From positions 1 through 58,630 of IMG/VR virus record IMGVR_UViG_3300027861_000034: a DNA stretch of 58,630 nucleotides. The stretch is one strand, 5' to 3'. The DNA comes from a virus. The notes below the pieces were generated by a model. That model was not told where the DNA came from. It worked only from the letters and a program-made list of their open reading frames with translations, and did not search any database. The position numbers and the translations under genes are program-made. Below, piece after piece: positions 16,212 to 58,630 of this stretch; position 1 is the first letter of the stretch, and each line of letters begins with the position of its first letter.

Positions 16212-16338
16212 AACAATGAGGTGATATAATGTTAAGACCATGCCCGTTTTGTGGGAGTAAAGCAAACCTGTACGAGACAGAAGGGAAAGACTGGGTTGTT
16301 GAGTGCACAGGTAGGAAATGCGAAGTATTACTTTTTGA
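16212..16338. repeat. 127-bp repeat, internal copy
   Basis: Identical over 127 bases to the end of the window (58504-58630). The base before each copy differs (G at 16211, C at 58503). It covers the ribosome site and the first ~36 codons of the Lar-like gene. This is the junction between parts A and B. Confidence 0.95.
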
Positions 16339-16423
16339 TGATATGGACTGGGGTAAGAAAAACTACGACGCGGAAACAAATGTAATTAAAAAATGGAATA
16401 CGCGAAAGCGCAGTCCGAAATAG
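16229..16423 (+). CDS. Lar-like restriction alleviation zinc-finger protein
   Basis: A 64-aa protein with the Lar-family layout: LRPCPFCGSKANLY at the N-terminus (CPFC knuckle), a central VVECTGRKCEV pair, and WNTR near the C-terminus. In coliphages Lar relieves type I restriction by boosting host modification; many family members are uncharacterised. GAGGTGATATA precedes the ATG. The first 110 bases of the gene recur at the window end. Confidence 0.85.
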   Translation: MLRPCPFCGSKANLYETEGKDWVVECTGRKCEVLLFDDMDWGKKNYDAETNVIKKWNTRKRSPK

Positions 16424-16444
16424 GAACCATAAATTGAGGTCAAA

Positions 16445-16600
16445 ATGAGTAAGAAGTATATATGTAATAATGCTAGCAAGTGTAAAGAATTTTGCAAACA
16501 CAAATCTATACACGAAAGAGATGATACTTGTGATAATAAATGCCCCACTGGTGATAATGTTAAATGTATCGAAATGAAGCAAATGACAGACAGGAGGTGA
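16445..16600 (+). CDS. small Cys-rich protein (51 aa)
   Basis: GAGGTCAAA before ATG. Six Cys in CNNASKCKEFCKH and CDNKC patterns suggest zinc binding. It ends inside the ribosome site of the next gene. Confidence 0.55.
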   Translation: MSKKYICNNASKCKEFCKHKSIHERDDTCDNKCPTGDNVKCIEMKQMTDRR

Positions 16601-16602
16601 AT

Positions 16603-16773
16603 ATGACTAAGGAAAATGCTCCAAAGTATCAACTCTACTACAAGGGTAACTACTTCAGCACCCAAGAGCTTAATGATTTTTTAGCAAAGGAGGCAATGGA
16701 AAAGAATGGCGATAGGAGACGAACACAAGTTCTCGGTACCACTGAGAGTCAACAAGAACAAGAAGTCTATTAA
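16603..16773 (+). CDS. hypothetical protein (56 aa)
   Basis: CAGGAGGTGAAT sets the start at 16603 rather than the upstream frame start at 16564. The segment YQLYYKGNYFSTQELNDFL looks like a short strand-helix motif. The 3' end overlaps the RusA gene. Confidence 0.5.
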   Translation: MTKENAPKYQLYYKGNYFSTQELNDFLAKEAMEKNGDRRRTQVLGTTESQQEQEVY

Positions 16774-17140
16774 CTACTTCTACCTTAATCTTAATAACTT
16801 TATTCAAGTATCAAAGAACTATATCTTACGCAACAATCTCAAACAGAAATACTCCGAGTTAGTTAGACCGCTTCTAAGCCACCTCAAGCGCATTGATAAC
16901 CAAGTCTATATTCAGTACACAATATACGGTAAGGATGCTAGAGAGTTCGATATAGGCAATGTAGGAGCGGTTGTAGATAAGTTCCTTTGTGATGTGTTGG
17001 TTAAGGAGGATGTGTTAGAGGATGATAACTATAAGTTCCTACCGGTAGTGATGTATAGGTGGGGTGGAATTGACAGAGAGAACCCAAGGGCTGATGTACT
17101 AATCAAAGAGATAGAGTATGTGCCTGTTAACGAGAGATAG
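16706..17140 (+). CDS. RusA-family Holliday junction resolvase
   Basis: 144 aa, the normal size. The catalytic acidic cluster is visible: D82 in FDIGN, D91 in VVDKFLCD and the acidic turn LEDDN near 105-108, spaced as in RusA. It cleaves four-way junctions made during recombination and resolves them before packaging. AGGAGG at about 16689 is 11 bases upstream. It fits with the Rad52-like, YqaJ and SSB-like genes that precede it on the part-B circle. Confidence 0.85.
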   Translation: MAIGDEHKFSVPLRVNKNKKSINYFYLNLNNFIQVSKNYILRNNLKQKYSELVRPLLSHLKRIDNQVYIQYTIYGKDAREFDIGNVGAVVDKFLCDVLVKEDVLEDDNYKFLPVVMYRWGGIDRENPRADVLIKEIEYVPVNER

Positions 17141-17155
17141 TCTACAACTGTAGAC
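17140..17155. promoter_or_regulatory. palindromic site GTCTACA-AC-TGTAGAC
   Basis: Perfect 7-bp arms around a 2-bp centre, overlapping the rusA stop and directly before AAGGAG of the next gene. One of the dispersed part-B palindromes. Confidence 0.8.
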
Positions 17156-17166
17156 AAGGAGAAGAG

Positions 17167-17634
17167 ATGAAGAAGGTAGATGAGACAAGGCCGATAAGCG
17201 CAAGGATACCTATTGAGCTTTATGAGATCATAGAAGCTAAGCTGAAAGATGCTTGGGCTAAGGGCAAGAAAATACCACTCAAGACTAAGGGTAAGTTCAG
17301 AGACCCTAGACTGTCAGATATTTTGATTGATATGTTGGCTGATGCAGTGATCAAAGATGAACAGAGTGGTGAATATGTTGAGGACTTTTGGGATAGACTT
17401 GCGATTGCTCTCACAGAGAAAGGTGATTTAAAGGTTAGGTCTCTTGGGGTTGAGGACTGTAATAGGATACAGGATTTAGCTAGAAGCTACGGGTTTGAAT
17501 CTAATATTAGATCAAGTGCTTGTTATATTTTCTTTTATAAAAAATTCGGTAAGAAAGGTATGAGGGAGTTAACTTGCTCCGATTTTGAAGAGACATTTAC
17601 AGAACATAAAAACAGAGAGATAGAGAGGGATTAA
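17167..17634 (+). CDS. hypothetical protein, possible N-terminal DNA-binding motif (155 aa)
   Basis: The start RPISARIPIELYEIIEAKL resembles a ribbon-helix-helix opening (strand then helix A), but the second helix is not clear. The rest is helical with several basic patches. It follows a palindromic site and AAGGAGAAGAG. A regulator of the palindromes is a possibility, not a conclusion. Confidence 0.6.
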   Translation: MKKVDETRPISARIPIELYEIIEAKLKDAWAKGKKIPLKTKGKFRDPRLSDILIDMLADAVIKDEQSGEYVEDFWDRLAIALTEKGDLKVRSLGVEDCNRIQDLARSYGFESNIRSSACYIFFYKKFGKKGMRELTCSDFEETFTEHKNREIERD

Positions 17635-17636
17635 TT

Positions 17637-17981
17637 ATGATGGATGAACTGATAGGAAAGATTGAACAATGGGCTGAGAGTAATGGTATCAATAGAAGCA
17701 ATGGTGTTACCGCTATTCATCAATACGCTAAGATAAAAGAAGAGTTCAATGAGCTAGGTGATGCACTTAATAACATGCTAAACAACTCACCTAATGCAGA
17801 GACAGCAGAGGCGAACGCTAACCATGTAGACCTTGAGATAGCCGACCTAGTTATAGCTACTATAGTCCTTGCTAAGATACACGGCACTGATATAAGAACC
17901 TGCTTATCAAAGGGTTATGAGAAGATAGAGCATCGTACAGGAGAGATCATTAACGGTATGTTTATAAGGGAGAGGGACTGA
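17637..17981 (+). CDS. MazG-like nucleotide pyrophosphohydrolase
   Basis: All-alpha NTP-PPase pattern: EEFNELGDAL at residues 35-44 and LEIADLVIA at about 66-74, giving the ExxE and ExxD metal ligands. It hydrolyses NTPs to NMP and pyrophosphate; phage versions may clean nucleotide pools or affect host stress signalling. The start may be either of two adjacent ATGs. It overlaps the next gene (TGATG). Confidence 0.8.
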   Translation: MMDELIGKIEQWAESNGINRSNGVTAIHQYAKIKEEFNELGDALNNMLNNSPNAETAEANANHVDLEIADLVIATIVLAKIHGTDIRTCLSKGYEKIEHRTGEIINGMFIRERD

Positions 17982-18187
17982 TGAGAGTATTAAAAGAAGA
18001 TGAATTGGATAGGGTAGTGCGCATGTGTGAAGAGACTGAGGGAGTTAGGCCTTTGTGTGGATGGGTTCCTTGTGTTGGTAGGGAATGCGAGGGTTGCTTA
18101 ATTGATGAGTACTATAATGAGGCCGAGAAAAGGTTTCCCGATGGTATGACCTATGATGAAGCATTTCAATTCTTGGAGGATAAATAA
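17981..18187 (+). CDS. small Cys-rich protein (68 aa)
   Basis: GAGAGGGACTG before ATG, overlapping the MazG stop. Cysteines at about 11, 19, 24, 29 and 32 (CGWVPCVGRECEGC) suggest a metal site. Unknown. Confidence 0.55.
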   Translation: MRVLKEDELDRVVRMCEETEGVRPLCGWVPCVGRECEGCLIDEYYNEAEKRFPDGMTYDEAFQFLEDK

Positions 18188-18624
18188 TGTGTGATCAATG
18201 TGAGATATACAAGGCTAGGATAGATGAGCTGGAGACTGCTATGAGTAGAACTAACACATCTTTTGGTAGGCTACTGAAGAATAGGGCACCTAAGAAAAAA
18301 GAGAAGACCACTGGGACTGATTGGTTTGATCAATTTAATCGCTATCAACAGGCTGACAGTAACTTCATACAGGCTTGGAATACGTTTGTAGAGTTCCGCA
18401 AGCAGAAGGGTAAGGCTATGACCTTGATCGCTGGACAGAGAATGCTTAGTAAGTTAGCACCGTTTGATCTATCTATTCAGACTGCGAGTTTGTATACAGC
18501 TGTAGATAAGGGATGGACTAACTGTTACCCCGAATCTGAAGGCAAGTCTTATGGTAGCTTTAAGCAAGAGAAGAGCGGTCAGTTTATAGGCGCACAAGTC
18601 GAAGTTAATTTGGAGGATTTATAG
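18187..18624 (+). CDS. O-like replication initiation / helicase-recruiting protein (145 aa)
   Basis: The C-terminal half matches a pattern common at the ends of phage O/DnaT-like proteins: AWNTFVEFRKQKGKAMTLIA, a middle helix, and VDKGWTNCYP. An N-terminal CDQC and coiled-coil segment come first. It immediately precedes, and is coupled with, the DnaB helicase gene, so helicase loading is the likely role. A palindrome-like site (18492-18507, one mismatch) lies inside it. Confidence 0.62.
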   Translation: MCDQCEIYKARIDELETAMSRTNTSFGRLLKNRAPKKKEKTTGTDWFDQFNRYQQADSNFIQAWNTFVEFRKQKGKAMTLIAGQRMLSKLAPFDLSIQTASLYTAVDKGWTNCYPESEGKSYGSFKQEKSGQFIGAQVEVNLEDL

Positions 18625-19955
18625 TGCCGATAGCTAGTATTGAGACTGAGAGAATTGTACTTGGTAAGATACTCGGCCTAGATGATTTCGATATTCAATC
18701 ACGGTTCATTAACATGTGTGATGTCGAGTGCTTCTTTGTTCCTATCCATAAAGACATTTGGGTATTGATGAATAAGCTGATGATCCAAGGACGTATGACT
18801 TGCCCTGCTACAGTATTCTCCGAGATAAGTATTGATGAGAACGTCTTAGCTGACATCTTGATCAATAAGTTTGATAGTAATGAGACTCTTAAATTCAACA
18901 TCAAAACCCTGCTAAACTATTCTGCTAGAAGGTTTTATAGTGAGAGTGGTAGATCAATAGAGGAGCTGGCTAATGTCGGTGGTGTTGATTGTTCTGATAC
19001 AATCCTTGAGGTTATAGACAGTATAGATAAGAGAGCTAAGGCTTTGAAGATCACTAAGCAACGTGACTCTAAGACCCTGCTATCAAGTATCGTTCACAAT
19101 ATGAAAGAGGGAGGTAGCAAAGAACTAAGGGTAGTGGAGTATGGAGTACCGCTATTCGATAAGTACTACAAGCATGAACGTGGTCACACTCATACGATAG
19201 GTGCTCAACCATCTGTAGGTAAAACTGCAATGGCACTAACTATTATGAGAGGAGTTCTACACGCTGGAGGTACAGTTTTTATATCAGTTAAGGAGTCTGA
19301 TGCTGAAGAGATAATGTGCAAGATGATATGCCAAGAGTCCAACGTAGCCTACTCTAAGATGAGATATGATCAGAGCGAACTAACTCAGCCGGAGTTTGAT
19401 AGGATTCAAAGAGCTATTGAGTATATCTATTCGATGCAGGAACGCATCTATATCTTTGGTGGTAAGGATTGGGAGCATTCAACAGAGTCTATAGAAGCTC
19501 AATTGGAGGCCATAGAGCAACGTGGAGTGCAGTTAGACTTAGTTGTGACTGATTATGTACAGAACCTTAAGGTACCGCTTAGGATTCAATCTAGGCCAAG
19601 GTACCAACAAGTAGAATGGATGGTAGAAAAGATGGCTGACCTTCACAAGAGGTTTGATGTTGCTGGAGTACTACTATCACAGCTGAACAGAAGTATAGAT
19701 GGGGTGCCTCACTTACATAATCTAAAGGAAGCCAGTAAGATTGAGGAAGAGAGTTCGATGATCACGTTCTTGCATAGAGATAAGGAGACCCAGCCGGTAA
19801 ACAACCAGCTACCTACTATGGTCTATAGCGAGAAGAACCGTAATGGAGAGCTTTGGGGAATGAGAGATGGGTTTGTAATGAATATACCTTCTACTCACTT
19901 CAGTACTAAGCTACATAAATATGAACCAAAATACGCACCGAGTGTACAGGTGTAG
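18624..19955 (+). CDS. DnaB-family replicative helicase
   Basis: GTG start after GGAGGATTTATA, overlapping the preceding stop. The N-terminal helical domain is about 1-150 (IETERIVLGKIL opens it). The RecA-like domain has Walker A GAQPSVGKT (193-201), Walker B LDLVVTD (304-310) and LLSQLNRS (H3), typical of DnaB. At 443 aa it is standard length, unlike the part-A helicase with its insertion. It would unwind the fork and recruit host primase. A part-B palindrome overlaps its stop codon. Confidence 0.9.
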   Translation: MPIASIETERIVLGKILGLDDFDIQSRFINMCDVECFFVPIHKDIWVLMNKLMIQGRMTCPATVFSEISIDENVLADILINKFDSNETLKFNIKTLLNYSARRFYSESGRSIEELANVGGVDCSDTILEVIDSIDKRAKALKITKQRDSKTLLSSIVHNMKEGGSKELRVVEYGVPLFDKYYKHERGHTHTIGAQPSVGKTAMALTIMRGVLHAGGTVFISVKESDAEEIMCKMICQESNVAYSKMRYDQSELTQPEFDRIQRAIEYIYSMQERIYIFGGKDWEHSTESIEAQLEAIEQRGVQLDLVVTDYVQNLKVPLRIQSRPRYQQVEWMVEKMADLHKRFDVAGVLLSQLNRSIDGVPHLHNLKEASKIEEESSMITFLHRDKETQPVNNQLPTMVYSEKNRNGELWGMRDGFVMNIPSTHFSTKLHKYEPKYAPSVQV

Positions 19956-19957
19956 AC
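19942..19957. promoter_or_regulatory. palindromic site GTGTACA-GG-TGTAGAC
   Basis: Overlaps the helicase stop codon and lies directly before AAGGAGAAGAG of the next gene. The outer variable positions are G/G, so it is not a perfect palindrome. Confidence 0.7.
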
Positions 19958-19971
19958 AAGGAGAAGAGAAG

Positions 19972-20394
19972 ATGAAGAAAGGTGAATGGATAACAGTAGA
20001 GTGTGGTGATAACGTGCTTGTTGGTACTATGATTAGTATACAGGATGGCTACGTTGACTTTGAGAATGATACAGAAAGAAGAAGCATAGACCTTGAAGAG
20101 GTTGACGATATGAGAACCTCAACCCAAGAGGAAATAGACAGCGTTAAGCCTAAAGAGACGTATGAGGATGTGGAGATTGAGTGGGTTTCTAAAATGGCAG
20201 AAGTTAGGCATCCCGAAAATAATAAGATATATAATATAACAGCTAAGCCTGTCGGATGGACGCTGAGTGGTTGGGCGTTGAGTGGGTATCTGCATGATGA
20301 GGAGTATATAGCTTATGTAATGCTGTTCGATGAGTCGGGAATGTCTATAAAATCCAAAGCAACCCACGCTCGATTCGTAAAGGTAGGTGAATAA
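19972..20394 (+). CDS. hypothetical protein (140 aa)
   Basis: AAGGAGAAGAGAAG sets the start at 19972. The N-terminal 45 residues (ECGDNVLVGTMISIQDGYVDF) look like a small beta-barrel; the C-terminal half has repeated LSGWALSGYL. No family recognised. Confidence 0.6.
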   Translation: MKKGEWITVECGDNVLVGTMISIQDGYVDFENDTERRSIDLEEVDDMRTSTQEEIDSVKPKETYEDVEIEWVSKMAEVRHPENNKIYNITAKPVGWTLSGWALSGYLHDEEYIAYVMLFDESGMSIKSKATHARFVKVGE

Positions 20395-20395
20395 A

Positions 20396-20536
20396 ATGTT
20401 AGCTATATTACTAGGAACAATTATGACTCTAATGACATTGGGGTTTGTTATAATACCTTTTATCTGTATTATTATCGACACCTATCAAAAGCTAACCAAC
20501 AAAGAGGATACATCATGTCGGTTGAGAAGACGCTAG
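20396..20536 (+). CDS. small membrane protein (46 aa)
   Basis: One long hydrophobic segment (residues 3-28) then a short basic tail. AGGTGAATAAA before ATG. It overlaps the next gene by 22 bases. Possibly an inhibitory or lysis-related peptide; nothing proves it. Confidence 0.45.
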   Translation: MLAILLGTIMTLMTLGFVIIPFICIIIDTYQKLTNKEDTSCRLRRR

Positions 20537-20697
20537 ACCTAATCGACAAGCTGATAGCAAGAGGTGATATGAAAATGGCGAGAGCTTTATCACGCAAGAT
20601 CGAACCGAAATTAAATGAGATAACAACAAACACAATCAAAGAACTACATCAATCAATCAAAGATTTTAGACAACCAAAACAAAAAGGAACAACATGA
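20515..20697 (+). CDS. hypothetical helical protein (60 aa)
   Basis: GAGGATACATC before ATG. Mostly helical and basic (KTLDLIDKLIARGDMKMARAL cut after 20). The stop overlaps the next ATG (ATGA). Confidence 0.55.
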   Translation: MSVEKTLDLIDKLIARGDMKMARALSRKIEPKLNEITTNTIKELHQSIKDFRQPKQKGTT

Positions 20698-20888
20698 TCA
20701 CAGTTTTTAGACCAAATGATTTCACGAAGGAAGGACTAGTAGCATTCAAAGAGTGTGGCAAACTAAACAGATCACACTTGAGGTATAACTTTAGAGTCTA
20801 CCTAGATAGGACAGATGAGGCGTACTACTCTGATAAGGATGAGGGAGAGATACTACAGGATATGAAGCAGGTTAAGATGAGCAGATAG
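20694..20888 (+). CDS. hypothetical protein (64 aa)
   Basis: Last rightward gene, coupled to its neighbour. It reads ITVFRPNDFTKEGLVAFKEC and later has a short acidic loop. Unknown. It ends 11 bases before the terminator stem. Confidence 0.55.
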   Translation: MITVFRPNDFTKEGLVAFKECGKLNRSHLRYNFRVYLDRTDEAYYSDKDEGEILQDMKQVKMSR

Positions 20889-20898
20889 AAAAGAGATA

Positions 20899-20932
20899 GG
20901 GGGCGACCATTACGGTTAGCCCCCTTTTTTTT
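20899..20932 (+). terminator. terminator between converging operons
   Basis: GGGGGC (20899-20904) pairs with GCCCCC (20919-20924), followed by eight T. It ends the rightward operon. On the opposite strand the hairpin is followed by a weaker U-rich stretch, so it may also slow leftward transcription, which ends at 20937. Confidence 0.87.
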
Positions 20933-21111: not shown

Positions 21112-21390
21112 CTATTCTCCTTTTAGTTCTTTAACTATCTTCTTTAGCTTCTGCGTATCTGTTGTTCTACGCTCCTTGTGATCATTGAACTCAACCTGCA
21201 ACTTGTCTATACGCCTGTGAATGATCTCTCTACAGTCGTGACACTCTTGCTTTGTTGAGAACGTCTTCTGTATCTCATTGATAATCTCTAGTACAGCATT
21301 ACGTATAGCTAGCTTCACCACTGCATAACCTACCAATACGATACCTACGATTATAGGCCAATACTCTACTAACATGTTCACGGTCTTCAT
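21112..21390 (-). CDS. membrane-anchored coiled-coil protein, possible holin or spanin (92 aa)
   Basis: One N-terminal membrane helix (about residues 11-28, WPIIVGIVLVGYAVVKLAI) is followed by a CHDC pair and a charged coiled coil to the C-terminus. This layout is seen in small phage lysis proteins (Rz-like or XhlA-like), but there is no recognisable endolysin near it. A palindromic site lies 18 bases upstream of the start. Confidence 0.6.
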   Translation of the reverse strand: MKTVNMLVEYWPIIVGIVLVGYAVVKLAIRNAVLEIINEIQKTFSTKQECHDCREIIHRRIDKLQVEFNDHKERRTTDTQKLKKIVKELKGE

Positions 21391-21407
21391 TCCTTTTCCT
21401 TTTAGTT

Positions 21408-21423
21408 GTGTACAGCTGTATAC
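21408..21423. promoter_or_regulatory. palindromic site GTGTACA-GC-TGTATAC
   Basis: Lies between the fibre-associated gene and the leftward membrane-protein gene, just upstream of that gene's ribosome site. Same core as the sites in the rightward operon. Confidence 0.75.
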
Positions 21424-21478
21424 TGTGGGTGGTGAATAAAACTAGCATACAGTGTACGGTTATTCAATATTTAATTAA

Positions 21479-22012
21479 CTAACTTCCATAGACTTCATCA
21501 TGTGCTTTTGCTTTGCATTCCCCTACATAAGCTCTATAAGCAACGTAGGCAACATTTGTTGCATCTTCTATACCATCTGCGATTAAAGCAAACTCATCGT
21601 CCTGTGTGTACTTCTCTCGTATATTCTCTACTACTAAAGCATTGTACTCTTGTAGTTCTCTCTCTTCTTTGAGTTGAGCAAAGTAATCTGCTGTCTGATA
21701 CTCTACCACTCCATCAATCACCATAAGCTCCGAGTTATCCCGTACGATTGCACCATCATGTTCAACGGCTGTCTGCGTGATAGTCTCCTTGCCTAGCTTC
21801 CATTGTTCTAGTTTAGTTATGTATTCGGGAAATGTAGGCTCTACGTAAGGCGGTAAAACCTGCCCATCTGCAATTGCCTTGTCATAATCTGCTTTTGCTT
21901 TTTGCTTGACAGATTCACGCATTGCCATTTCGCGTTCATAATCTTTTTGCCCGAAGTCTTCCTGTACTGAGCTTGTTACTTCGCTTCCGTTTACTGCGTA
22001 TACCATGTTCAT
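21479..22012 (-). CDS. possible tail fibre assembly / accessory protein (177 aa)
   Basis: It follows the receptor-binding protein gene in the same direction. The product is helical, with P-rich PPYVEPTFPEY in the middle. Fibre chaperones usually occupy this place and have a similar size and a late helical region; sequence similarity is too weak to say more. Confidence 0.5.
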   Translation of the reverse strand: MNMVYAVNGSEVTSSVQEDFGQKDYEREMAMRESVKQKAKADYDKAIADGQVLPPYVEPTFPEYITKLEQWKLGKETITQTAVEHDGAIVRDNSELMVIDGVVEYQTADYFAQLKEERELQEYNALVVENIREKYTQDDEFALIADGIEDATNVAYVAYRAYVGECKAKAHDEVYGS

Positions 22013-22022
22013 AATTTTTCTC

Positions 22023-23477
22023 CTAGTAAAATGAGCAAACTAATTTGCCCGTTATTGTGTTTGAATTACTTGCTTTGATTTGTGCTGTCTCAAAGATACT
22101 GGAGCTGTCTTTAATCCATAAGCCATTCAGTCCTATCGAATTTTCATTTGCATTGTATTTACTCAAGCAGACCCTATTAGATCCATTTTTGAGAGAAATA
22201 AGACTACTAAAATCGCAAACCTTCCTTATATATCCGAAAATATTTACACCCAATTGAATGGCTGATGTTGTTGAGGAAGTACTAGAAGCTAAATACTGCC
22301 TATCTACAGTTTGAGTTAAATTATTAAAGGTTATACCCATAAAACAATAAGAGTCGGCCCCCTCCCCCACAAAATCCACTTTGCAAAACAGCGCATCACT
22401 AGGAATCTCAAAACTATGACCTGCTGAGAAATCGCCTGCAATGTCTACCACTTGTCGATATGTCCACGGTGTCAAATCTGCGTTGTAGCCTTTTGGGACT
22501 GCGTAGAGTTGTATGTTGCCCGATACGCTTGCCGATGGTCGTAGCAGTAGCGAGGTCATTGGGGTTGATGTGTCGGGATTGGTTGTGTATCGCTCGACTT
22601 GCTGTGCCGCTACTTGTTCGTTTAAAGTACTTGTTGATATGTTTTTCCTACCAACCTCTGCATTTATACACGTTTCTGAATCTGGGTATATTTGAAAATC
22701 TTCTGTTTCTGGGATATTTGCAGAATACAGAGTTCCGTTGATATTATACATATGTTGCATTGTTTTGTCAGCCACAACAAGTTCATTTATATATCCATCT
22801 ATAGTTGAATCCAATCCACTACTCTTCACAACAATATCATACAACTCCCCGTCAATCTCAACACCTTCCGTATCATTCACGCCACCGAATATAATATCTG
22901 CGGTTTGATTTGTAAGCGTTAAATTCTTGAGCAAAATCGCGTGTGGATTGTACTGGATTTTTGGGACTGCGGTTATTACTAGGGTGTAGGTGATTGTTGC
23001 AGTTGATGTACTTTGAAATTGAATTGACGTTAGTTCTGTGCTCGTGTCGGATGTGTAATAGGATTCTTTTATTATATTTGTTGATGCAATCTTACTAAAT
23101 GATGCTATTTCATCTACATGCCTTTTGTTGCCAATTAAACCCGTTATTTTTCCGTTATTAAACGATGGATAGCTTGATTGTGACGATTGAGCAATACCAA
23201 CAAAAGCCGATGTTCCGCTAAACGCAGAAGCCGTTGTATTTCTACCCTGCATAAAATCCCTTGAATATGAAGTTGAATTATTTAGCTCAAATGTTACAGC
23301 AGTCTCAGAGCTTTGAGAATGCAAAACAAAATGATACTCATAATCATAAACCTCTGAACCTTCGCCCTCGATAGTTAAATCAATATCCTCAAAGTTCACA
23401 CCTGCCGTAACCGCTTTAGTCTCGCGGTCAATTCGGCATACTGTGCGGTGTACGTTTTTCTTTTTTGGAAATACCAT
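22023..23477 (-). CDS. tail fibre / receptor-binding protein (484 aa)
   Basis: A strand-rich, Ser/Thr/Asn-rich protein without catalytic motifs, directly downstream of two fibre-module genes. The N-terminus is basic (FPKKKNVHRTVCRIDRET). The composition and position point to a distal fibre or receptor-binding subunit. It starts two bases after the upstream stop. Confidence 0.65.
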   Translation of the reverse strand: MVFPKKKNVHRTVCRIDRETKAVTAGVNFEDIDLTIEGEGSEVYDYEYHFVLHSQSSETAVTFELNNSTSYSRDFMQGRNTTASAFSGTSAFVGIAQSSQSSYPSFNNGKITGLIGNKRHVDEIASFSKIASTNIIKESYYTSDTSTELTSIQFQSTSTATITYTLVITAVPKIQYNPHAILLKNLTLTNQTADIIFGGVNDTEGVEIDGELYDIVVKSSGLDSTIDGYINELVVADKTMQHMYNINGTLYSANIPETEDFQIYPDSETCINAEVGRKNISTSTLNEQVAAQQVERYTTNPDTSTPMTSLLLRPSASVSGNIQLYAVPKGYNADLTPWTYRQVVDIAGDFSAGHSFEIPSDALFCKVDFVGEGADSYCFMGITFNNLTQTVDRQYLASSTSSTTSAIQLGVNIFGYIRKVCDFSSLISLKNGSNRVCLSKYNANENSIGLNGLWIKDSSSIFETAQIKASNSNTITGKLVCSFY

Positions 23478-23479
23478 AA

Positions 23480-23914
23480 TTACCTCACAATCTTATATGA
23501 TGCACTCACTGTATCGTACTCCAAACATAAGACACCATCGGCTATAACAACTGTAGGTACAATTGTATCTCCACTCGTAGCTTTCTCAATCTTTACTTGA
23601 GCTGTACCACTGACGTAGATATAGTATTGTGATCCGTTAGACGCTGTATCCGGAACTGTCACTGTACCATTTACGCTACCTGCAAATGTATTAACCTTAG
23701 TGTTTGCTTGGAGTGTGTCTGTATCTACTACTATATTGGTAAGAGCTGGCGGTGTATAACCTTGTCCTCCCGATACTAGATCAAGACCACCTAGTGTTAC
23801 GCCATCTCCTATACGAAACTTTTCATTAGTTACATCGTAGACCATCTCTCCATCTTCTAGTGTGATTGCATCCAACTGTGCTGATGTGCCAAAAGGCGGT
23901 TTAAAAATACTCAT
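23480..23914 (-). CDS. tail fibre protein with Mtd-type N-terminal domain (144 aa)
   Basis: Residues 1-45 (GTSAQLDAITLEDGEMVYDV then KFRIGDGVTLGG) match the short domain that opens many fibre proteins, including the major tropism determinant of BPP-1. A beta-rich remainder follows. It is short for a full fibre, so it may be a connector between the anchoring protein and the 484-aa protein. It overlaps the upstream stop by one base. Confidence 0.7.
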   Translation of the reverse strand: MSIFKPPFGTSAQLDAITLEDGEMVYDVTNEKFRIGDGVTLGGLDLVSGGQGYTPPALTNIVVDTDTLQANTKVNTFAGSVNGTVTVPDTASNGSQYYIYVSGTAQVKIEKATSGDTIVPTVVIADGVLCLEYDTVSASYKIVR

Positions 23915-50347: not shown

Positions 50348-50358
50348 AAGGAGATAGT

Positions 50359-51353: not shown

Positions 51354-51356
51354 ACT

Positions 51357-51372
51357 GTATACAGCTGTATAC
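51357..51372. promoter_or_regulatory. palindromic site GTATACA-GC-TGTATAC
   Basis: Part of the fully self-complementary 18-mer TGTATACAGCTGTATACA, the most symmetrical copy, between a stop codon and AAGGAAGGG of the next gene. Confidence 0.85.
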
Positions 51373-51394
51373 AAAGTAAGGAAGGGAAAAGATT

Positions 51395-51745
51395 ATGAGT
51401 ACAAATTCAACAATTACAATTAAAGATAGAAGTGTATTTAGAACTATTTATTGCCATTGGGATGGATATATAGATGGCGTTGGTTTTGAATTAAGAGATA
51501 ATTACAGGAATAAAGAAGCGATTTTAGAGCTACTTAAGTTAGGTGAATTATCTGCCCTTGGAGCTGATATAAGTAAGTGTGTAGCCTACCATAGAGATAG
51601 AGGCGAGGACTTATGTGAGGCCGATATAAATGAGTCCTATGATAAGTGCAGAAAAGAGGAATATAATTACCTGTGGATGCACGGTCAATGGTGGGAAGGT
51701 AGTTCGATTAATTCAATGAAGCCATTAAGTGAAATAGCAAAGTAA
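51395..51745 (+). CDS. hypothetical protein (116 aa)
   Basis: AAGGAAGGGAAAAGATT before ATG. The first ~50 residues (TIKDRSVFRTIYCHWDGYID) resemble a small domain that recurs in phage and plasmid proteins. Aromatic and acidic composition. Function unknown. Confidence 0.6.
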   Translation: MSTNSTITIKDRSVFRTIYCHWDGYIDGVGFELRDNYRNKEAILELLKLGELSALGADISKCVAYHRDRGEDLCEADINESYDKCRKEEYNYLWMHGQWWEGSSINSMKPLSEIAK

Positions 51746-51759
51746 GGAAGGGAATAATT

Positions 51760-53412
51760 ATGAGTAATTTACAGGATTTTAGTGTTGAGCAAATAACAAA
51801 GGCAAGTAAGGAATTTTTGCCGACGTTGGATTTGGGTAGTGGTACAGCTATTGAGTTAGCAAGTAAGGTACGGGCTAATTTGAAGTTTAAGCCATTTACA
51901 GAGCAGTCATTGGTGCAATGGATAGAAGCTGGTGGCAAGGAAAGTGAGAAGCCTAAGCCACAAGATAAGAGTCAAGACGATACACCTTTTGACGATACTC
52001 CAGCACCACAGTCACAAACTAAGAAACCTCATGCAAGTGAGAAGCCTCAGAGCGATAAGGCTAAAGAAGTTGAGCAGAAAATGCAGGAAGCTATGAAGGC
52101 TATGCAAGAGGCAATGGAGGAAAAGCATGAACAAGAGTCTCAAAAGCAATCTCAAGAGGAAGCTGATGAGCGGTACGTATTGCAAGATGATTACAATGTA
52201 GATAAAGAAAAGATTGCTACTGAATTTGAGTCTATTGATCAAGACTTAGAGGAATTGTGTACAGCTGTAGACAAAGTTACTGAACAAATCAAATCTATTG
52301 ACAAGTCAGTAAAGAAAATTGAGATTGTAACTCCCGAACAACCTAAGCCAGTTGATGTAGGCGTAGCTCACTGGACTGTACCGGTGATAAGTAAGGCGGT
52401 ATATAAAGGCGTGCACCTAACCTTAGTAGGGCCAGCTGGTAGTGGTAAGACAACGGCATGTCACCAAGTAGCACAAGGTTTGGAGATGGACTATCACCCA
52501 ATGTCAGTAGGGCCACAAACTACAAAGTCTGATTTGATGGGATACAAGGACGCTCACGGTGTGTACCATGATACTCCAGTAAGAAAGGCATTTGAGCACG
52601 GTGGCTTATTGCTACTAGATGAGATGGATTCTGCTAATGCTGGTGTACTTACTATTCTGAATAGTTTACTGGCTAATGGACTATGCTCATTCCCCGATAA
52701 GACTGTTGATATGCACAAAGATTTCCGCTGTATCACGGCCTGTAATACGTTTGGAAGGGGCGCAGATAGGATGTATGTAGGTCGTAATCAGTTGGATGCG
52801 GCGACTTTGGATAGGTTCGGAGTGCTGGATTTTGACTATGACGAAGCCTTAGAAGCTATTATAATCGGTGTTCAACCTAAGGAAGCTCAAAAGGAATGGA
52901 AGTTTCAGAAGACACGTACAGTCTCAAGTGAGGAATGGTTGGCTCGTGTTCAACACTACCGTAAACGTGCCGGAGAATTGAAGCAACGTATGGTTATCAG
53001 TCCAAGAGCAGTGATCAACGGTAACAAGCTATTGGATATGGTGCTTACTGTTGGTGATGTCGAAGATATATGTGTGTTCAAAGGTGTTGATAATGAGATT
53101 AAACGTAAGCTCAAAGAGGGTTTTAAGTTTGATGATGGTAAGAAAAAGAAAACACCTAAATCGAAAGCCGATGCTGGCGGTGGTAATGGTGTGTGGATTG
53201 AGCACAAAGGTGGTAAGATGCCGGTGAGTGGGGACACGTTGGTTGATATAAGATTTGCTGATGAAAGTGATAGGTCAACCGACCAAGGTAAACAAGCTAG
53301 AAATTGGAGTTGGCGTTGGAGTGGTACACCTAGAGATAGCAATATTACAGCTTACCGTATATCACTACCTAAGACTGTTGAGAAAACAGAGGATGATCCG
53401 TTCGACTTCTGA
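51760..53412 (+). CDS. AAA+ ATPase, MoxR/CbbQ-like (550 aa)
   Basis: A Lys/Gln-rich coiled N-terminal part (1-190) precedes an AAA_5-type domain: Walker A GPAGSGKT (224-231), Walker B LLLLDEMD (283-290), sensor 1 in ACNTFGRG (about 327-334) and an arginine in LDRFG. MoxR-type ATPases remodel protein complexes together with a VWA partner, and the next gene may be that partner. After the DDPFDF stop (TGA at 53410) the same frame runs on for 27 codons to a TAA at 53496. An internal palindrome lies at 52257-52272. Confidence 0.85.
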   Translation: MSNLQDFSVEQITKASKEFLPTLDLGSGTAIELASKVRANLKFKPFTEQSLVQWIEAGGKESEKPKPQDKSQDDTPFDDTPAPQSQTKKPHASEKPQSDKAKEVEQKMQEAMKAMQEAMEEKHEQESQKQSQEEADERYVLQDDYNVDKEKIATEFESIDQDLEELCTAVDKVTEQIKSIDKSVKKIEIVTPEQPKPVDVGVAHWTVPVISKAVYKGVHLTLVGPAGSGKTTACHQVAQGLEMDYHPMSVGPQTTKSDLMGYKDAHGVYHDTPVRKAFEHGGLLLLDEMDSANAGVLTILNSLLANGLCSFPDKTVDMHKDFRCITACNTFGRGADRMYVGRNQLDAATLDRFGVLDFDYDEALEAIIIGVQPKEAQKEWKFQKTRTVSSEEWLARVQHYRKRAGELKQRMVISPRAVINGNKLLDMVLTVGDVEDICVFKGVDNEIKRKLKEGFKFDDGKKKKTPKSKADAGGGNGVWIEHKGGKMPVSGDTLVDIRFADESDRSTDQGKQARNWSWRWSGTPRDSNITAYRISLPKTVEKTEDDPFDF

Positions 53413-53496
53413 AGGCGTGAATATGAGTACTCTTTTGATACTGCTGAAGATAAGTGGTATCAAGAGTTTGAGGCTAGACAAGATAAATACAAGTAA
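53413..53496 (+). other. in-frame open extension after the AAA+ stop
   Basis: 27 codons following TGA read RREYEYSFDTAEDKWYQEFE and end KYK before TAA. The composition is protein-like, and the next palindromic site begins three bases after this TAA, the spacing seen after genuine stops elsewhere in the operon. No ATG, GTG or TTG start lies in this frame. Confidence 0.5.
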
Positions 53497-53498
53497 CT

Positions 53499-53514
53499 GT
53501 GTACAGCTGTATAC
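53499..53514. promoter_or_regulatory. palindromic site GTGTACA-GC-TGTATAC
   Basis: Sits between TAA at 53496 and the AGAGGATGAT ribosome site of the VWA-like gene. Confidence 0.8.
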
Positions 53515-53526
53515 AAAGAGGATGAT

Positions 53527-54387
53527 ATGAAATTAACTGAGACTAAGAAAGGTAAAAAGAAACTGACTCACTATGAGTTTGCTAGTCTCGCTGAGCTGGC
53601 TGACCATATAGAGGACTTACCTATTGACTATGACCGTGCAAGTATGGAGAAACCGGATAGTAAGTGGGCTGGCTGTGACTTTCCTACTGCTATAAGTAAG
53701 GCACAAACTGGTGATCCTTTACTAGCTGAGAAGCTGGCACATAAGGTTGATGCTGTTGAGTCATTGCTAGATAGTGAGGGTGTCGAGATAATCAGAGATG
53801 TGATAGGTGATTTCTTTGATATAGGTACGGTATTAAGTGGTGAACCGGAGTGCTGGTGGCGTGAGGAACTATCACCTCAAAAGGATACGATAAGGATTGA
53901 ATGTGCCTTTAGTTTATCAGCTAGTATAAGTGAGGATATGCTTATGAACAGGGGTGGTGCTGTAGTTGCTTTATGTGACAGCTTAGCTGATGCTGGGTAT
54001 GGTGTTGACCTAAGAATGGTGGCTGGTATTGAGTATAGTGGTAACTATTTCATGGTTGATGTAGGTGTATCATGTAAGCCGTTAGACATAGACTCTGTTG
54101 CATTCTGTCTGGCTCACCCTGCTACATTAAGGCGATTGGTATTTGGTCTTATGGAAACACACTACAATAAGATTAACTGTGGTGATGGATACGGTAAGCC
54201 GTGTGACTACTACAATGCTGATGGCAAGAGAGATAAGGAAGGCATTCACTTTGTATCTAATACTAACAAGGCATTCAACAAGTATAACTTTAGAGATGTA
54301 GAGGAAGCTGAGAAGCACGTAGTTAGAATGATTGAGAAGTACAATGAGTTAACAAAAAATAACGAACCATTATTCTTGGAGGGATAG
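53527..54387 (+). CDS. VWA-like partner of the AAA+ protein (286 aa)
   Basis: The second half has a Rossmann-like pattern that opens with RIECAFSLSASISEDML, a degenerate MIDAS-type D/S-x-S arrangement, then a helix and the strand YGVDLRMVAGIEYSG, as in von Willebrand A domains. Pairing of MoxR ATPases with VWA proteins is widespread, including in phages such as N4. The first half is basic and unassigned. Family match is by pattern only. Confidence 0.55.
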   Translation: MKLTETKKGKKKLTHYEFASLAELADHIEDLPIDYDRASMEKPDSKWAGCDFPTAISKAQTGDPLLAEKLAHKVDAVESLLDSEGVEIIRDVIGDFFDIGTVLSGEPECWWREELSPQKDTIRIECAFSLSASISEDMLMNRGGAVVALCDSLADAGYGVDLRMVAGIEYSGNYFMVDVGVSCKPLDIDSVAFCLAHPATLRRLVFGLMETHYNKINCGDGYGKPCDYYNADGKRDKEGIHFVSNTNKAFNKYNFRDVEEAEKHVVRMIEKYNELTKNNEPLFLEG

Positions 54388-54389
54388 GT

Positions 54390-54572
54390 ATGAGTTACTT
54401 AGTAATACAACACAAAGGCGATGGACATAAGGTACCTCTTGCTATACATGGCGAATTGGAAACCGCTAATGATCATAAGGATTGGTGTACATCTAATTGT
54501 ATTGATGAGGCGAGTGATGATTTTTTCTATATAGTAGAACTTAATGGTGTTGAACAAAAGAGAGGATATTAA
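54390..54572 (+). CDS. hypothetical protein (60 aa)
   Basis: GGAGGGATAGGT before ATG. Short strands with two Cys (CTSNC). Directly follows the VWA-like gene. Unknown. Confidence 0.55.
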   Translation: MSYLVIQHKGDGHKVPLAIHGELETANDHKDWCTSNCIDEASDDFFYIVELNGVEQKRGY

Positions 54573-54573
54573 A

Positions 54574-54942
54574 ATGAATAAGATAATAAAGATAGACAGT
54601 AAAACAAAAACAATGGAAGTCCTTGCGCTTAAAGCGAATACAGCTGTAGACAGTTCTGTACAGTCAACACATATGAGAGAGTTGATAGGGTGTAATTACT
54701 TTGAACACGCTGTACTGGGTGGCAACATCGACATTTGGTTTGATGAAGAGTATCAGCTACATGAAGAGCATGAAGGGTACGGGTTTAAACTTCCAAACTT
54801 TGAGCAACCTGTGCTAGGTAATGCAATCATAACAGCCTTTGATGAAGAGGGTAATACAATGGGCTTAGAGAATGCCAATGAGTTGGCTAGGTTTATGATG
54901 ACAGTAATACAGTTCGGACAATCTAAAAAGAAGGAGGAATAG
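54574..54942 (+). CDS. DUF3846-like protein (122 aa)
   Basis: AGAGGATATTAAA before ATG sets the start at 54574. A small alpha/beta layout with MRELIGCNYFEHAVLGGNID, then a strand GNAIITAFDEEGNTMGL, resembles DUF3846 proteins found in phages. Role unknown. A degenerate palindromic site (54636-54651) lies in the gene. Confidence 0.55.
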   Translation: MNKIIKIDSKTKTMEVLALKANTAVDSSVQSTHMRELIGCNYFEHAVLGGNIDIWFDEEYQLHEEHEGYGFKLPNFEQPVLGNAIITAFDEEGNTMGLENANELARFMMTVIQFGQSKKKEE

Positions 54943-55209
54943 ATGTTGTATGATCTAAAGAAGTTGAGGCGTAGACTAGGTATCAAGGTACCGGAGATAG
55001 TAGAGAAATTTAACCTACATAACAGACAGATAGTGTACTACTGGGAACGCAAGAAGCAGTATCCGGAGTACGTCAAGGAGTGGATGGATAAGAAAGAGGA
55101 CGATATGAAAGCCTTCAATAATAAGGCTTCACTTAGAGCAATTGACGAGAGACTAAAACGATTAGAAAAAAAGATAGGAGGTTCAGATGTTTCGACCACT
55201 GAGAAGTAA
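54943..55209 (+). CDS. small HTH protein with coiled-coil tail (88 aa)
   Basis: AAGGAGGAATAG before ATG. Residues 2-40 (LKKLRRRLGIKVPEIVEKFN then IVYYWERKKQYP) form a Cro/YdaS-like helix-turn-helix; a coiled coil follows. It is a good candidate for an early regulator, and for the protein that reads the palindromes. It overlaps the annealing-protein gene by 23 bases. Confidence 0.65.
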   Translation: MLYDLKKLRRRLGIKVPEIVEKFNLHNRQIVYYWERKKQYPEYVKEWMDKKEDDMKAFNNKASLRAIDERLKRLEKKIGGSDVSTTEK

Positions 55210-55666
55210 TGAGATAGAATGTAGGGTTCAATCAGTAAAGGCTAACGGGTTTGTAATGTTGCTATACAAGGACGCTCGATGCGATATGTCTATACTTGAT
55301 GAGACAGTCGGCCCACTCAATTGGATGCGCTCACATTCAAGGGAAAACGCTAACTGTACTGTGTCTATATTTAACAAAGAGATAGGGCAATGGATAGGCA
55401 AGGAGGATACAGGTACTAAATCCAACACCGAAGCTGAGAAAGGTATGGCTTCTGACTCGTTCAAAAGGGCGTGTTTTAATTGGGGTATAGGCCGTGAATT
55501 ATATACAGCTCCATTCGTTTGGATTAATCAGATGCAATATGTCAAGAACGGTAAGGTTTATGAGAAGTTTTCAGTAGCTCACTTGGCTGTTGAGAATGGA
55601 GAGATAACACAGTTGGCTATAGCTGATAGTCGTGGAACAGTAATCTATAAATACAATTGCCAGTAA
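55187..55666 (+). CDS. Rad52-type single-strand annealing protein (159 aa)
   Basis: The Rad52/22 N-terminal fold is recognisable: VQSVKANGFVMLLYKDARCD, then WMRSHSRENANCTVSIFNKE, GTKSNTEAEKGMASDSFKRA and FNWGIGRELYTAPFVWI. It would anneal complementary single strands produced by the YqaJ exonuclease encoded downstream. GGAGG lies six bases upstream of the ATG. Confidence 0.87.
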   Translation: MFRPLRSNEIECRVQSVKANGFVMLLYKDARCDMSILDETVGPLNWMRSHSRENANCTVSIFNKEIGQWIGKEDTGTKSNTEAEKGMASDSFKRACFNWGIGRELYTAPFVWINQMQYVKNGKVYEKFSVAHLAVENGEITQLAIADSRGTVIYKYNCQ

Positions 55667-55668
55667 TC

Positions 55669-55684
55669 GTGTACAGCTGTATAC
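55669..55684. promoter_or_regulatory. palindromic site GTGTACA-GC-TGTATAC
   Basis: Between the annealing-protein stop and AAAAGGAGAAG of the next gene. Confidence 0.8.
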
Positions 55685-55698
55685 AAAAGGAGAAGATA

Positions 55699-55821
55699 AT
55701 GAGTGAAGTAATTGAGTTGCCGTTGAGTGTGTACAATGATGTAGAGTTCGTTGATACCGTTAAGGTTACGACCCTTTGGTCTGATGGTGATAATATAACA
55801 TTTAAAGTAGAGGAGAAGTAA
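55699..55821 (+). CDS. hypothetical protein (40 aa)
   Basis: AAAGGAGAAGATA before ATG. Strand-rich and acidic. It lies between a palindromic site and the next ribosome site. Unknown. Confidence 0.5.
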   Translation: MSEVIELPLSVYNDVEFVDTVKVTTLWSDGDNITFKVEEK

Positions 55822-55822
55822 G

Positions 55823-56047
55823 ATGAGTAATCACAACGCAGAAACATCAAAGCTATTCAAGCAAAGATACACTTCGCAGAACATTATATCAGAGAAGCAA
55901 CGACAACAGATAGAGAAGCTAGAGGAGGAGGTAGCAGTACTAAAACATACTGTAATTCGTGTACATAATACAGCGCAATTAGCCGGTGACTTTCCATCAA
56001 AACAGACGATGGTAGATATAGTTAACTTGTGTGATACTGTACTATAA
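55823..56047 (+). CDS. hypothetical coiled-coil protein (74 aa)
   Basis: GAGGAGAAGTAAG before ATG. A central coiled coil (KQRQQIEKLEEEVAVLKHTV) between short polar ends. Located between the recombination genes. Confidence 0.55.
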   Translation: MSNHNAETSKLFKQRYTSQNIISEKQRQQIEKLEEEVAVLKHTVIRVHNTAQLAGDFPSKQTMVDIVNLCDTVL

Positions 56048-56097
56048 GTTTGAGGGTAAATAATAGGTCAGTTAGACCGCAAAAATGGAGAAGAGAA

Positions 56098-57006
56098 ATG
56101 AGTAAAGATAGACTAGAGTGGTTGGAGAATCGCAAGAAGGGTGTTGGTGGTTCTGAGATAGCAAGTATATGTGGGCTGAGCAAGTGGGCTACACCTAAAG
56201 ATGTATGGGATAGTAAGCTGGGTAACGTGCCTGTATCAGATGAAATGACTACGGCTCAATTGTTTGGTACATTGGCTGAGCCTATAATCGTTGAGATGTT
56301 TGAGCGTAAAACAGGGCTACACGTAACGACAGGATGTGATCAAGTTACTGATGCTAATTACCATTATATGCTGGCTAACGTGGATGGTATCATTGCGAGT
56401 GAGGGTTGCATCTTTGAGGCTAAGACTGCATCTGCATTTATGGCTGGTGATTGGGGAACTGAAGATACAGAAGAGATTCCTATCGGTTACTACCTACAAG
56501 TCCAACACTATATGGGCGTGCTGAACATGAACAAGGCGTATGTAGCGGTGTTGATCGGTAACGCTGACTTCAGAGTATATACTATCCAAAGAGATGATAC
56601 AGTTATCAAGCGTATTAGATTGGCTTGTAAGACGTTTTGGGAGGACTTCGTAGAAAAGAAGGTACAACCTCCACTTACTGTAGATGAGACTATTAGCGAG
56701 GCTTGCAACGTAATACAGGGCGCAATCATTCATACTACTCCATTGGTAGAGGTAGCACTATCTGATCTTAAGGAGTTGAAGGCTCAAGAGAAGGTTCTTA
56801 AAGCTGACATCAAAGACCAAGAGAATATTGTTAAGGCTCACATTGGAGAGAATGAGATACTAGTCAACGCTGATGGTGGTACGCTGGCAACGTGGAAACA
56901 GTCAGTATCAAATAGGTTTGACTCAAAGGTGTTCAAGAGTGACAACCCCGAAACATATAATCAATACTGCTTTGAATCTGCATCCCGTAGATTCCTAGTT
57001 AAATAA
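56098..57006 (+). CDS. YqaJ-family exonuclease / viral recombinase (302 aa)
   Basis: A PD-(D/E)xK nuclease, starting at 56098 after GGAGAAGAGAA. Motifs: VGGSEIASICGLSKW near the start, GTLAEPIIVEMFERKTG with E61, ANVDG with D96, and FEAKTAS with E107 and K109. It digests one strand of double-stranded ends; with the annealing protein it forms a Red/RecET-like pair. The C-terminal ~100 residues are helical. Confidence 0.9.
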   Translation: MSKDRLEWLENRKKGVGGSEIASICGLSKWATPKDVWDSKLGNVPVSDEMTTAQLFGTLAEPIIVEMFERKTGLHVTTGCDQVTDANYHYMLANVDGIIASEGCIFEAKTASAFMAGDWGTEDTEEIPIGYYLQVQHYMGVLNMNKAYVAVLIGNADFRVYTIQRDDTVIKRIRLACKTFWEDFVEKKVQPPLTVDETISEACNVIQGAIIHTTPLVEVALSDLKELKAQEKVLKADIKDQENIVKAHIGENEILVNADGGTLATWKQSVSNRFDSKVFKSDNPETYNQYCFESASRRFLVK

Positions 57007-57009
57007 ACT

Positions 57010-57025
57010 GTATACAACTGTACAC
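57010..57025. promoter_or_regulatory. palindromic site GTATACA-AC-TGTACAC
   Basis: Three bases after the YqaJ stop and directly before AAAGGAGAATAGAG. Confidence 0.8.
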
Positions 57026-57039
57026 AAAGGAGAATAGAG

Positions 57040-57432
57040 ATGAATATGAAAGCAGAGATGAATGCAATACTAAATGAGATGGACGCAAGTGAGATTGATG
57101 TAAGTGCAATGAGAAGGCCGGAAGGTATGACTGAAACAGAGCATCGTGAGGCTTTAGTTAGTGAAGTGTCAGAGATGATAGCATGTGTTGCTACTGGAAT
57201 TAAGATAGCACTAACTGGTAAGGATGGATTCAAAAACCTAAAGGAGTTTGATGAGTTTATTCATAAGTTTAGAAAATCAACCAATACTCTTGATGATATG
57301 ACTGAAAGACTTGCAATGATTATGAGTGTTAAGATCAGTGAGTCCGGTGATGAGGGAGTACAATTTTTAAAAGGCATGAAACTAGAAGTCCTAGACATGC
57401 TTAAAAAACAAATAACAAACGAAGGAGAGTAG
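57040..57432 (+). CDS. hypothetical protein (130 aa)
   Basis: AAAGGAGAATAGAG before ATG. Mostly helical and charged; lies between the exonuclease and SSB-like genes. No family recognised. Confidence 0.55.
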   Translation: MNMKAEMNAILNEMDASEIDVSAMRRPEGMTETEHREALVSEVSEMIACVATGIKIALTGKDGFKNLKEFDEFIHKFRKSTNTLDDMTERLAMIMSVKISESGDEGVQFLKGMKLEVLDMLKKQITNEGE

Positions 57433-57436
57433 AGAG

Positions 57437-57634
57437 ATGGTAACAGTATCAGAGGTAATGGCAGAGAAAGCAGTGTTGGAACTAAGAGTATCAGCATTGG
57501 CAAAGGTATCGGGTGATAAGCGTAAGGTGTTGACAGCTAACGAGAAGCGAGCACTAGGGGTTATCCTTAGTGAAGAGTCAGCTAAGCTAGAGTCATACAT
57601 GGGAACACAACTAACAGTAGCAGAGGTGGTATAA
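57437..57634 (+). CDS. hypothetical protein (65 aa)
   Basis: AGGAGAGTAGAGAG before ATG. Helical with a conserved-looking KRALGVILSEESAKLESY segment. The stop overlaps the SSB-like start (TAATG), implying coupled expression. Confidence 0.55.
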   Translation: MVTVSEVMAEKAVLELRVSALAKVSGDKRKVLTANEKRALGVILSEESAKLESYMGTQLTVAEVV

Positions 57635-58041
57635 TGGAACAGGAACAAAAGGTTTGGGTCGGTGGTATCTTCTTTAAGAAGCACACGTTCTCTAATGGTG
57701 GGTCACAGATTAAGGCATGGAGTCCTAACGTAGATGAGTTATGCGCTTGGCTACAGGCTAACAAGAAGGCTGATGGTACTATCGCTTTTAATGTCGGTGG
57801 CAGTAAGGTTCCTCGTATGGACGATAAGGGTAATGAGAAGCTGAACGCAAGCCTAGACACTTGGGAGCCAGCAGGAGGGGGGCAAGCTCAACAGCAGTTT
57901 GGTCAAGCACCTCAACAGCCTATTCAGACTCCGGCTCCACAGCAAGGGTATCAGCAAGCACCACAAGGGCAGTCTGCACCACCACAATATCAGCAAGGTG
58001 TAGCTCCACAATATGCTCCGCCCCAAACCCCACAAGGTTGA
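57634..58041 (+). CDS. SSB-like protein, stops short of its acidic tail
   Basis: A folded N-terminal domain of ~75 residues (GGIFFKKHTFSNGGSQIKAW start, KLNASLDTWEP end) is followed by a Gln/Pro-rich flexible linker, the layout of single-strand binding proteins. The frame stops at TGA (58039-58041), yet the next 15 in-frame codons end in DDDIIPF, nearly the E. coli SSB tip DDDIPF. Without the tail it would bind DNA but not recruit partners. Location beside annealing and exonuclease genes supports the role. Either TGA is read through, or it is a mutation or error. Confidence 0.65.
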   Translation: MEQEQKVWVGGIFFKKHTFSNGGSQIKAWSPNVDELCAWLQANKKADGTIAFNVGGSKVPRMDDKGNEKLNASLDTWEPAGGGQAQQQFGQAPQQPIQTPAPQQGYQQAPQGQSAPPQYQQGVAPQYAPPQTPQG

Positions 58042-58089
58042 CTCACTGATGTGGCTACAGATGTAGACGATGATATTATACCTTTTTAG
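58042..58089 (+). other. in-frame SSB-type acidic tail beyond the stop
   Basis: Reads LTDVATDVDDDIIPF then TAG (58087-58089), in the frame of the SSB-like gene. A palindrome-like site (58053-58068, one mismatch) overlaps it. Two direct repeats AGTCCGGTAACT / AGTCCGATAACT follow at 58088 and 58129. Confidence 0.65.
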
Positions 58090-58249
58090 TCCGGTAACTC
58101 ATTATACTGAGCAGTAATTAACAACAGGCAGTCCGATAACTAGTCCGTTTGAGGGCTGTCTTAATTCAATAGAGATAGAGATTATGGAATGTCACGGTTG
58201 AGTTTAAGACATTTAAGCAAAGAGAAATTTTAAAACAAATGAGGTAGAA

Positions 58250-58441
58250 ATGATACCATTTGAGAGAGATATGGAGCATAAGGTAAGCGAGGTTATATGT
58301 GTTCAGTGTTCGACTCGTTGGATATGTGTAAGGCCGACAGATGTGCAACTCAAAGACATTGAATGTCAGAATTGTGGTTGTGGGTATGTAGTTGAAACAG
58401 GGCAAGATATAAAAAGAGAATGCAGTGTGTGGAAAGGCTGA
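58250..58441 (+). CDS. zinc-ribbon protein (63 aa)
   Basis: GAGGTAGAA before ATG. CVQC (18-21) and CQNCGC (40-45) form a zinc ribbon. Another frame overlapping the 3' end (from GTG 58425 to TAA 58499) reads CGKAELF and CAECWEVFNP, possibly a lost or shifted extension. Confidence 0.6.
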   Translation: MIPFERDMEHKVSEVICVQCSTRWICVRPTDVQLKDIECQNCGCGYVVETGQDIKRECSVWKG

Positions 58442-58503
58442 ACTATTCGATAACGATGTCGATATATGCGCAGAGTGTTGGGAAGTATTTAATCCGTAAA
58501 ACC

Positions 58504-58630
58504 AACAATGAGGTGATATAATGTTAAGACCATGCCCGTTTTGTGGGAGTAAAGCAAACCTGTACGAGACAGAAGGGAAAGACTGGGTTGTTGAGTGCAC
58601 AGGTAGGAAATGCGAAGTATTACTTTTTGA
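58504..58630. repeat. 127-bp repeat, terminal copy
   Basis: Identical to 16212-16338 and ending exactly at the last base of the window. Its length equals a k-mer size widely used in assembly, so it may mark a graph junction rather than a real duplication. Confidence 0.95.
58521..58630 (+). CDS. Lar-like zinc-finger protein, cut by the window end
   Basis: The first 36 codons of the Lar-like gene, identical to those at 16229. The rest is beyond the window, or is the copy at 16229 if part B is circular. Confidence 0.8.
   Translation, partial: MLRPCPFCGSKANLYETEGKDWVVECTGRKCEVLLF

Follow-up and report, generated by a model that had tools for sequence, protein, structure and literature searches.

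The IMG/VR virus record analysed here as one window of 58,630 bp is very probably an assembly chimera, in which a complete circular phage genome of 42.3 kb is preceded by 16 kb from an unrelated phage. The initial annotation had already read the record as a circular phage with a foreign lead-in, and this reading is supported by the restoration of a Lar open reading frame upon closure, by the two-operon plan of the resulting circle, by a switch of sequence signature at the join, by redundant replication modules, by the documented use of a k-mer length of 127 in assembly and by the occurrence of chimeras in the same collection. Taken at face value, the record suggests that a phage of 58 kb encodes two DnaB-type helicases together with a homologue of Gad1, whereas the correct split yields one closed 42.3-kb phage genome, which IMG/VR classed as linear, and a 16-kb fragment of another phage. 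While the artefact as such is ordinary and matters mainly for excluding the record from claims about gene content, screening for terminal k-mers that recur internally would reveal other records of this kind, which are missed by tests for end-to-end repeats.

Repeat structure of the record

The window comprises the entire virus record, which is a single contig. In an exact-repeat comparison within the window, positions 16212-16338 and 58504-58630 are identical over 127 bp, in agreement with the exact overlap between the end and an internal site that had been described before; the flanks of the two copies differ, the match being lost one base upstream, and the window ends with the final base of the second copy. 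Since the exact direct repeats that follow in length are a local one of 55 bp (266/396) and a 26-bp microsatellite, a repeat of 127 bp is far beyond chance, and a search of the record against itself returned only these two copies. With regard to a direct terminal repeat of the T7 type, one of the copies is internal to the record and lies inside a coding gene. What is found here, i.e., a repeat with one copy terminal in the contig, a self-sufficient loop and a change of both gene content and sequence signature at the join, corresponds to an assembly path in the form of a lasso. The coordinates of the features are given in Table 1.

An exact search with a 57-mer from the repeat gave no match in viral contigs, and no named phage was matched by megablast with most of the window. 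Searches of viral contigs with both DnaB-like proteins, Gad1 and Lar returned no second record with the 5' Lar sequence or with either half of the window in another context, and genome contigs gave none for the portal and the DnaB-like protein of the lead-in. There were no matches to Rfam and no tRNA genes.

Table 1. Features of the 58,630-bp window and of the circle obtained by closing it on the repeat
Feature	Position	Strand	Remarks
Probable foreign lead-in, early-type region of a second phage	1..16211	+	no palindromes; separate codon and k-mer usage
127-bp repeat, copy 1	16212..16338	+	leader, start and first 110 nt of the Lar-like gene; branch vertex with 2 in/1 out at k = 127
Lar-like restriction alleviation protein, 64 aa	16229..16423	+	Pfam PF14354, E 6.6e-13; phrog_599
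Early operon, distal half: RusA, MazG, O-like, DnaB helicase	16339..20898	+	three palindromes
Intrinsic terminator, where early and late operons converge	20899..20932	+	direct fold
Late operon: holin, tail fibre region, tail proteins, major head, protease, portal/head-tail adaptor, terminase large subunit	21112..48555	-	12 palindromes
Divergent intergenic control region	48556..50358	.	36% GC
Early operon, proximal half: AAA ATPase, Rad52/Erf-like annealase, YqaJ exonuclease	50359..58503	+	eight palindromes within 48.6-58.5 kb
127-bp repeat, copy 2	58504..58630	+	ends at the last base, truncates the Lar ORF

Gene plan of the closed circle

Closing the record on the repeat gives a circle of 42,292 bp, and the Lar ORF, cut off in the record, reaches its full 64 aa once position 58630 is joined to 16339. 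The circle consists of one early and one late operon, as had been anticipated for a clean closure. The divergence of the two, placed by the initial annotation at 48.6-50.4 kb, is found between the start of the last gene on the minus strand (48555) and that of the first early gene of some size on the plus strand (50359), and the convergent terminator proposed at 20899 was recovered by direct folding as a strong hairpin followed by T8 (GGGGGC...GCCCCCTTTTTTTT). A consensus scan for terminators missed this hairpin, probably owing to a loop longer than the scan allows.

Matches to connector/portal, TerL, major head and tail families (phrog_332 with E 6e-100, phrog_2, phrog_3437, phrog_394 and phrog_376) place the circle among the podovirus-type phages, and its annealase, YqaJ exonuclease, RusA, O-like protein and DnaB form a coherent set for recombination and replication. 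In Pfam and PHROG scans, no integrase, recombinase or transposase was found among the main annotated proteins of the circle. Among podovirus-type genomes, the closed circle is new yet ordinary.

Two GNAT-type acetyltransferase-like proteins, both with weak Pfam matches, are encoded at separate spots in the late operon (33792-34259 and 43529-43987). In the tail-fibre region there is also a match to the Mtd N-terminal domain (23480-23914, PF18454, E 7e-6), and no reverse transcriptase was seen among the annotated proteins.

Gene content of the lead-in

The 16.2 kb in front of the repeat code for a DnaD-like protein, a Gad1 homologue, a DnaC-like protein, a divergent DnaB-like protein, Dam, a sliding clamp and many small ORFs, and no structural genes were detected in positions 1-16211. 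The set of DnaD-, DnaC- and DnaB-like proteins together with the clamp bears out the claim that a second replication module precedes 16212; with one module in the lead-in and another in the circle, the record is redundant in this respect.

The homologue of the Gabija anti-defence protein Gad1 (2406-3416, Pfam E 1e-68) is located beside the replication genes. Its nearest match is a 41% identical protein of the 134-kb Vibrio phage 1.170.O, where it is annotated only as coil-containing. Large Vibrio and Shewanella phages were rejected as the source of the lead-in, as in the regions compared only the Gad1 gene is common to both and its neighbourhood differs. The divergent DnaB-like protein of 583 aa (6557-8308) contains an insertion rich in cysteines (CVHNQNGSCNHKC...CSDC), and tblastn against the phage collection found no match to this protein. 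The gene-poor leader of the lead-in contains a 73-bp direct repeat (266-338 and 396-468) that is 89% identical, with 55 bp exact, and possibly represents a promoter or origin region.

Change of sequence signature at the join

A dispersed and nearly perfect palindrome of 20 bp, TTGTNTACANNTGTANACAA, has 23 sites in the circle between 17138 and 58051 (e.g., at 51086, 52255, 53497 and 55667) when sites are counted at 13 or more matching positions out of 16; three of these are found just after the join, eight before it and 12 in the late operon. The sequence before 16212 had been noted to lack these palindromes, and indeed no site is present in positions 1-16211, as compared to 8.8 sites expected at the density of the circle (P about 1.5e-4; about 4e-6 at the density of the early operon). 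In the early operon the palindromes often reside directly 5' of a ribosome-binding site, while others sit within late genes; they might be operators for a repressor or activator of the phage, and they are absent from the relatives L094-L097.

By k-mer composition, positions 16339-20899 group with the rest of the circle and not with 1-16211, and the codon usage of 16706-20394 has a distance to the circle of 3.19, in comparison to a minimum of 4.05 among 1000 size-matched samples of genes from the lead-in. Taken together, palindromes, k-mer composition and codon usage therefore locate the break at or just after 16212, which is where a lasso-shaped assembly path requires it to be.

The join itself is embedded in a palindrome-free Lar cassette of about 1.4 kb, extending from 58071 across the join to 17137, the middle part of which (58071-16705 across the join) is intermediate in composition between the lead-in and the circle. 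Besides the 127 bp, the only clear similarity between lead-in and circle is a 39-bp leader, which occurs in the lead-in at 15300-15338 and just after Lar at 16411-16449, the two being 82% identical. Recent transfer of a small Lar cassette between the two phages would fit both the intermediate composition and the similar leader, and might thus have supplied the segment that they share.

Assembly graph and probable origin of the repeat

In a de Bruijn graph of the window alone, k = 127 gives just one branch vertex, at 16212, with two incoming edges and one outgoing edge, and k = 128 gives no branch vertex; the outgoing edge comes back to this vertex after 42,292 bp. End repeats of k-mer length are what assemblers leave on opening circular templates (PMC8116208), and the length of the repeat equals the top k of one published JGI metagenome assembly with metaSPAdes, for which k-mers of 33, 55, 77, 99 and 127 were used (PMC10604447), although the assembler of this particular record may differ.

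According to the proposed mechanism, the loop (16212-58503) would represent a complete podovirus-type genome of 42,292 bp, which may be either circular or circularly permuted and terminally redundant, and the tail 16.2 kb from an unrelated phage in which the same DNA is present from 16212 onwards, namely the leader and the 5' part of the Lar-like gene. At k = 127, the shared k-mer would have formed one vertex with two incoming edges, from the sides of 16211 and 58503, respectively, and one outgoing edge. The assembler would then have entered by the foreign edge, circled once and halted upon re-entry into the vertex, so that exactly k bases would have been written twice. A molecule joining 16211 to 16212 and continuing into the circle would accordingly be nonexistent or confined to a minority.

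On re-entering an edge already used, an assembler path ends once the shared vertex alone has been written, and the resulting repeat is k long regardless of the true length of the shared DNA. Because the path halts at an already-used node, the 127 bp are only a lower bound on the DNA common to both genomes, which diverge upstream of 16212 and may remain identical for some distance past 16338. That no exit of the foreign phage is visible at 16338 is explained by the same fact, as the length of the repeat reflects k and not the extent of sharing. Of the suggestion in the initial annotation that 127 is a maximum k and that two paths share one graph node, the documented JGI k and the branch vertex thus stand, but the 127 bp cannot be equated with the full shared length.

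Alternative explanations

Some observations sit less comfortably with a chimera: the continuation of the foreign genome was not found among viral contigs, 127 is just one of several end-repeat lengths in 79 control contigs (see below), and the composition of 58071-16705 is intermediate across the join. A true genome of more than 58.6 kb with two copies of the Lar segment, in which the unresolved repeat ended the contig at its second copy, would agree with the continuity of the deposited sequence over 16211/16212 and with the resemblance of the leaders at 15300 and 16411. Nevertheless, such a genome is very unlikely, as it would combine 16.2 kb devoid of palindromes with a remainder containing all 23, a break in codon and k-mer usage and two replication modules, and would exceed most distant relatives in size, among the matches listed; moreover, a 127-bp repeat that can be resolved is normally crossed at both copies and not at the first only. 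Integration of a 42-kb element into a larger one, the 127 bp being a duplicated attachment site and the contig ending at the right-hand site, matches the geometry of foreign DNA, direct repeat, 42-kb element and direct repeat. It must be regarded as extremely unlikely, however, given that neither an integrase nor a transposase is among the annotated proteins of the circle, that the repeat lies in a coding region and exceeds the usual length of attachment cores, and that the lead-in is phage-type early DNA and not obviously host DNA.

It is also conceivable that both paths into 16212 are natural, with some particles of a recombinant sub-population carrying the lead-in in place of the annealase/exonuclease half of the early operon. 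Phages often exchange modules at their early genes, the graph has two entries to 16212 and one exit, and the cassette surrounding Lar is intermediate in composition. Such a recombinant would, however, carry two DnaB-type helicases and be without palindromes in most of its early operon, and the first bases of the lead-in are unlike the circle, so that no second crossover is apparent at the left end: between the lead-in and the divergent region at 48.6-50.4 kb only short chance matches were found, and a crossover there was rejected. The existence of this sub-population is likewise very unlikely, and it is quite improbable that the junction at 16212 is real in particles by way of a mosaic population in which the recombination-type early module is swapped, at a conserved Lar cassette, for a second and palindrome-free replication module with the Gad1 homologue.

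Comparison with known genomes and control contigs

As regards the assembly chimera, the preferred reading, the circular-genome contigs described with CheckV resemble the record in having an exact repeat of assembler-k length and in yielding a complete genome upon closure (PMC8116208). They differ from it in that one copy of the repeat is internal here, owing to the attached foreign 16-kb segment, and this explains the class 'linear' given by IMG/VR.

For control, 79 gokushovirus contigs from the same collection, with a known genome size near 4.5 kb, were inspected. Exact start-end repeats are present in 28 of the 79 and measure 127 bp in two of these, while two further contigs have 127-bp repeats slightly inward of one end; other end-repeat lengths (121, 123, 99) are equally common, presumably reflecting several assembly procedures. 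Judged by both size and content, one contig of 7,113 bp (L045) is a chimera of a 4,474-bp circle and 2.6 kb of a 76-82% identical genome, connected via a 112-bp exact match, and another of 8,670 bp (L058) consists of two whole genomes that are about 80% identical. Therefore, different genomes do get joined through shared stretches of such length in this collection. Both contigs are like the record in that a full circle is combined with part or all of a second genome over a shared exact stretch; in contrast to their tails, which stem from 76-82% identical relatives, the lead-in of the record is unrelated except for the shared segment and the 39-bp leader.

The closest relatives of the late operon found are three IMG/VR contigs of about 10.5 kb (L094-L096), with 69% identity in the portal and 61% in the terminase; these are fragments without an early operon or palindromes, and thus have no bearing on the join. 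In the circular Ruminococcus phage phiRgPS_6, genes for annealase, endodeoxyribonuclease and replisome organiser lie side by side, matching the order of annealase, nuclease and replication initiator in the closed circle. Podoviridae sp. ct3Et533 (MW202510.1), a distant relative with a circular genome of 41,714 bp, shares with the circle the late gene order terminase - connector - protease - major capsid - tail, the divergent early operon, the two-operon plan and a similar size, but differs in having only 26-33% protein identity, other early genes including its own DNA polymerase, and no palindromes. With ct3Et533 at 41.7 kb and relatives by terminase and portal mostly of 32-52 kb, among the matches listed, the size of the circle falls within the known range and thereby supports its closure.
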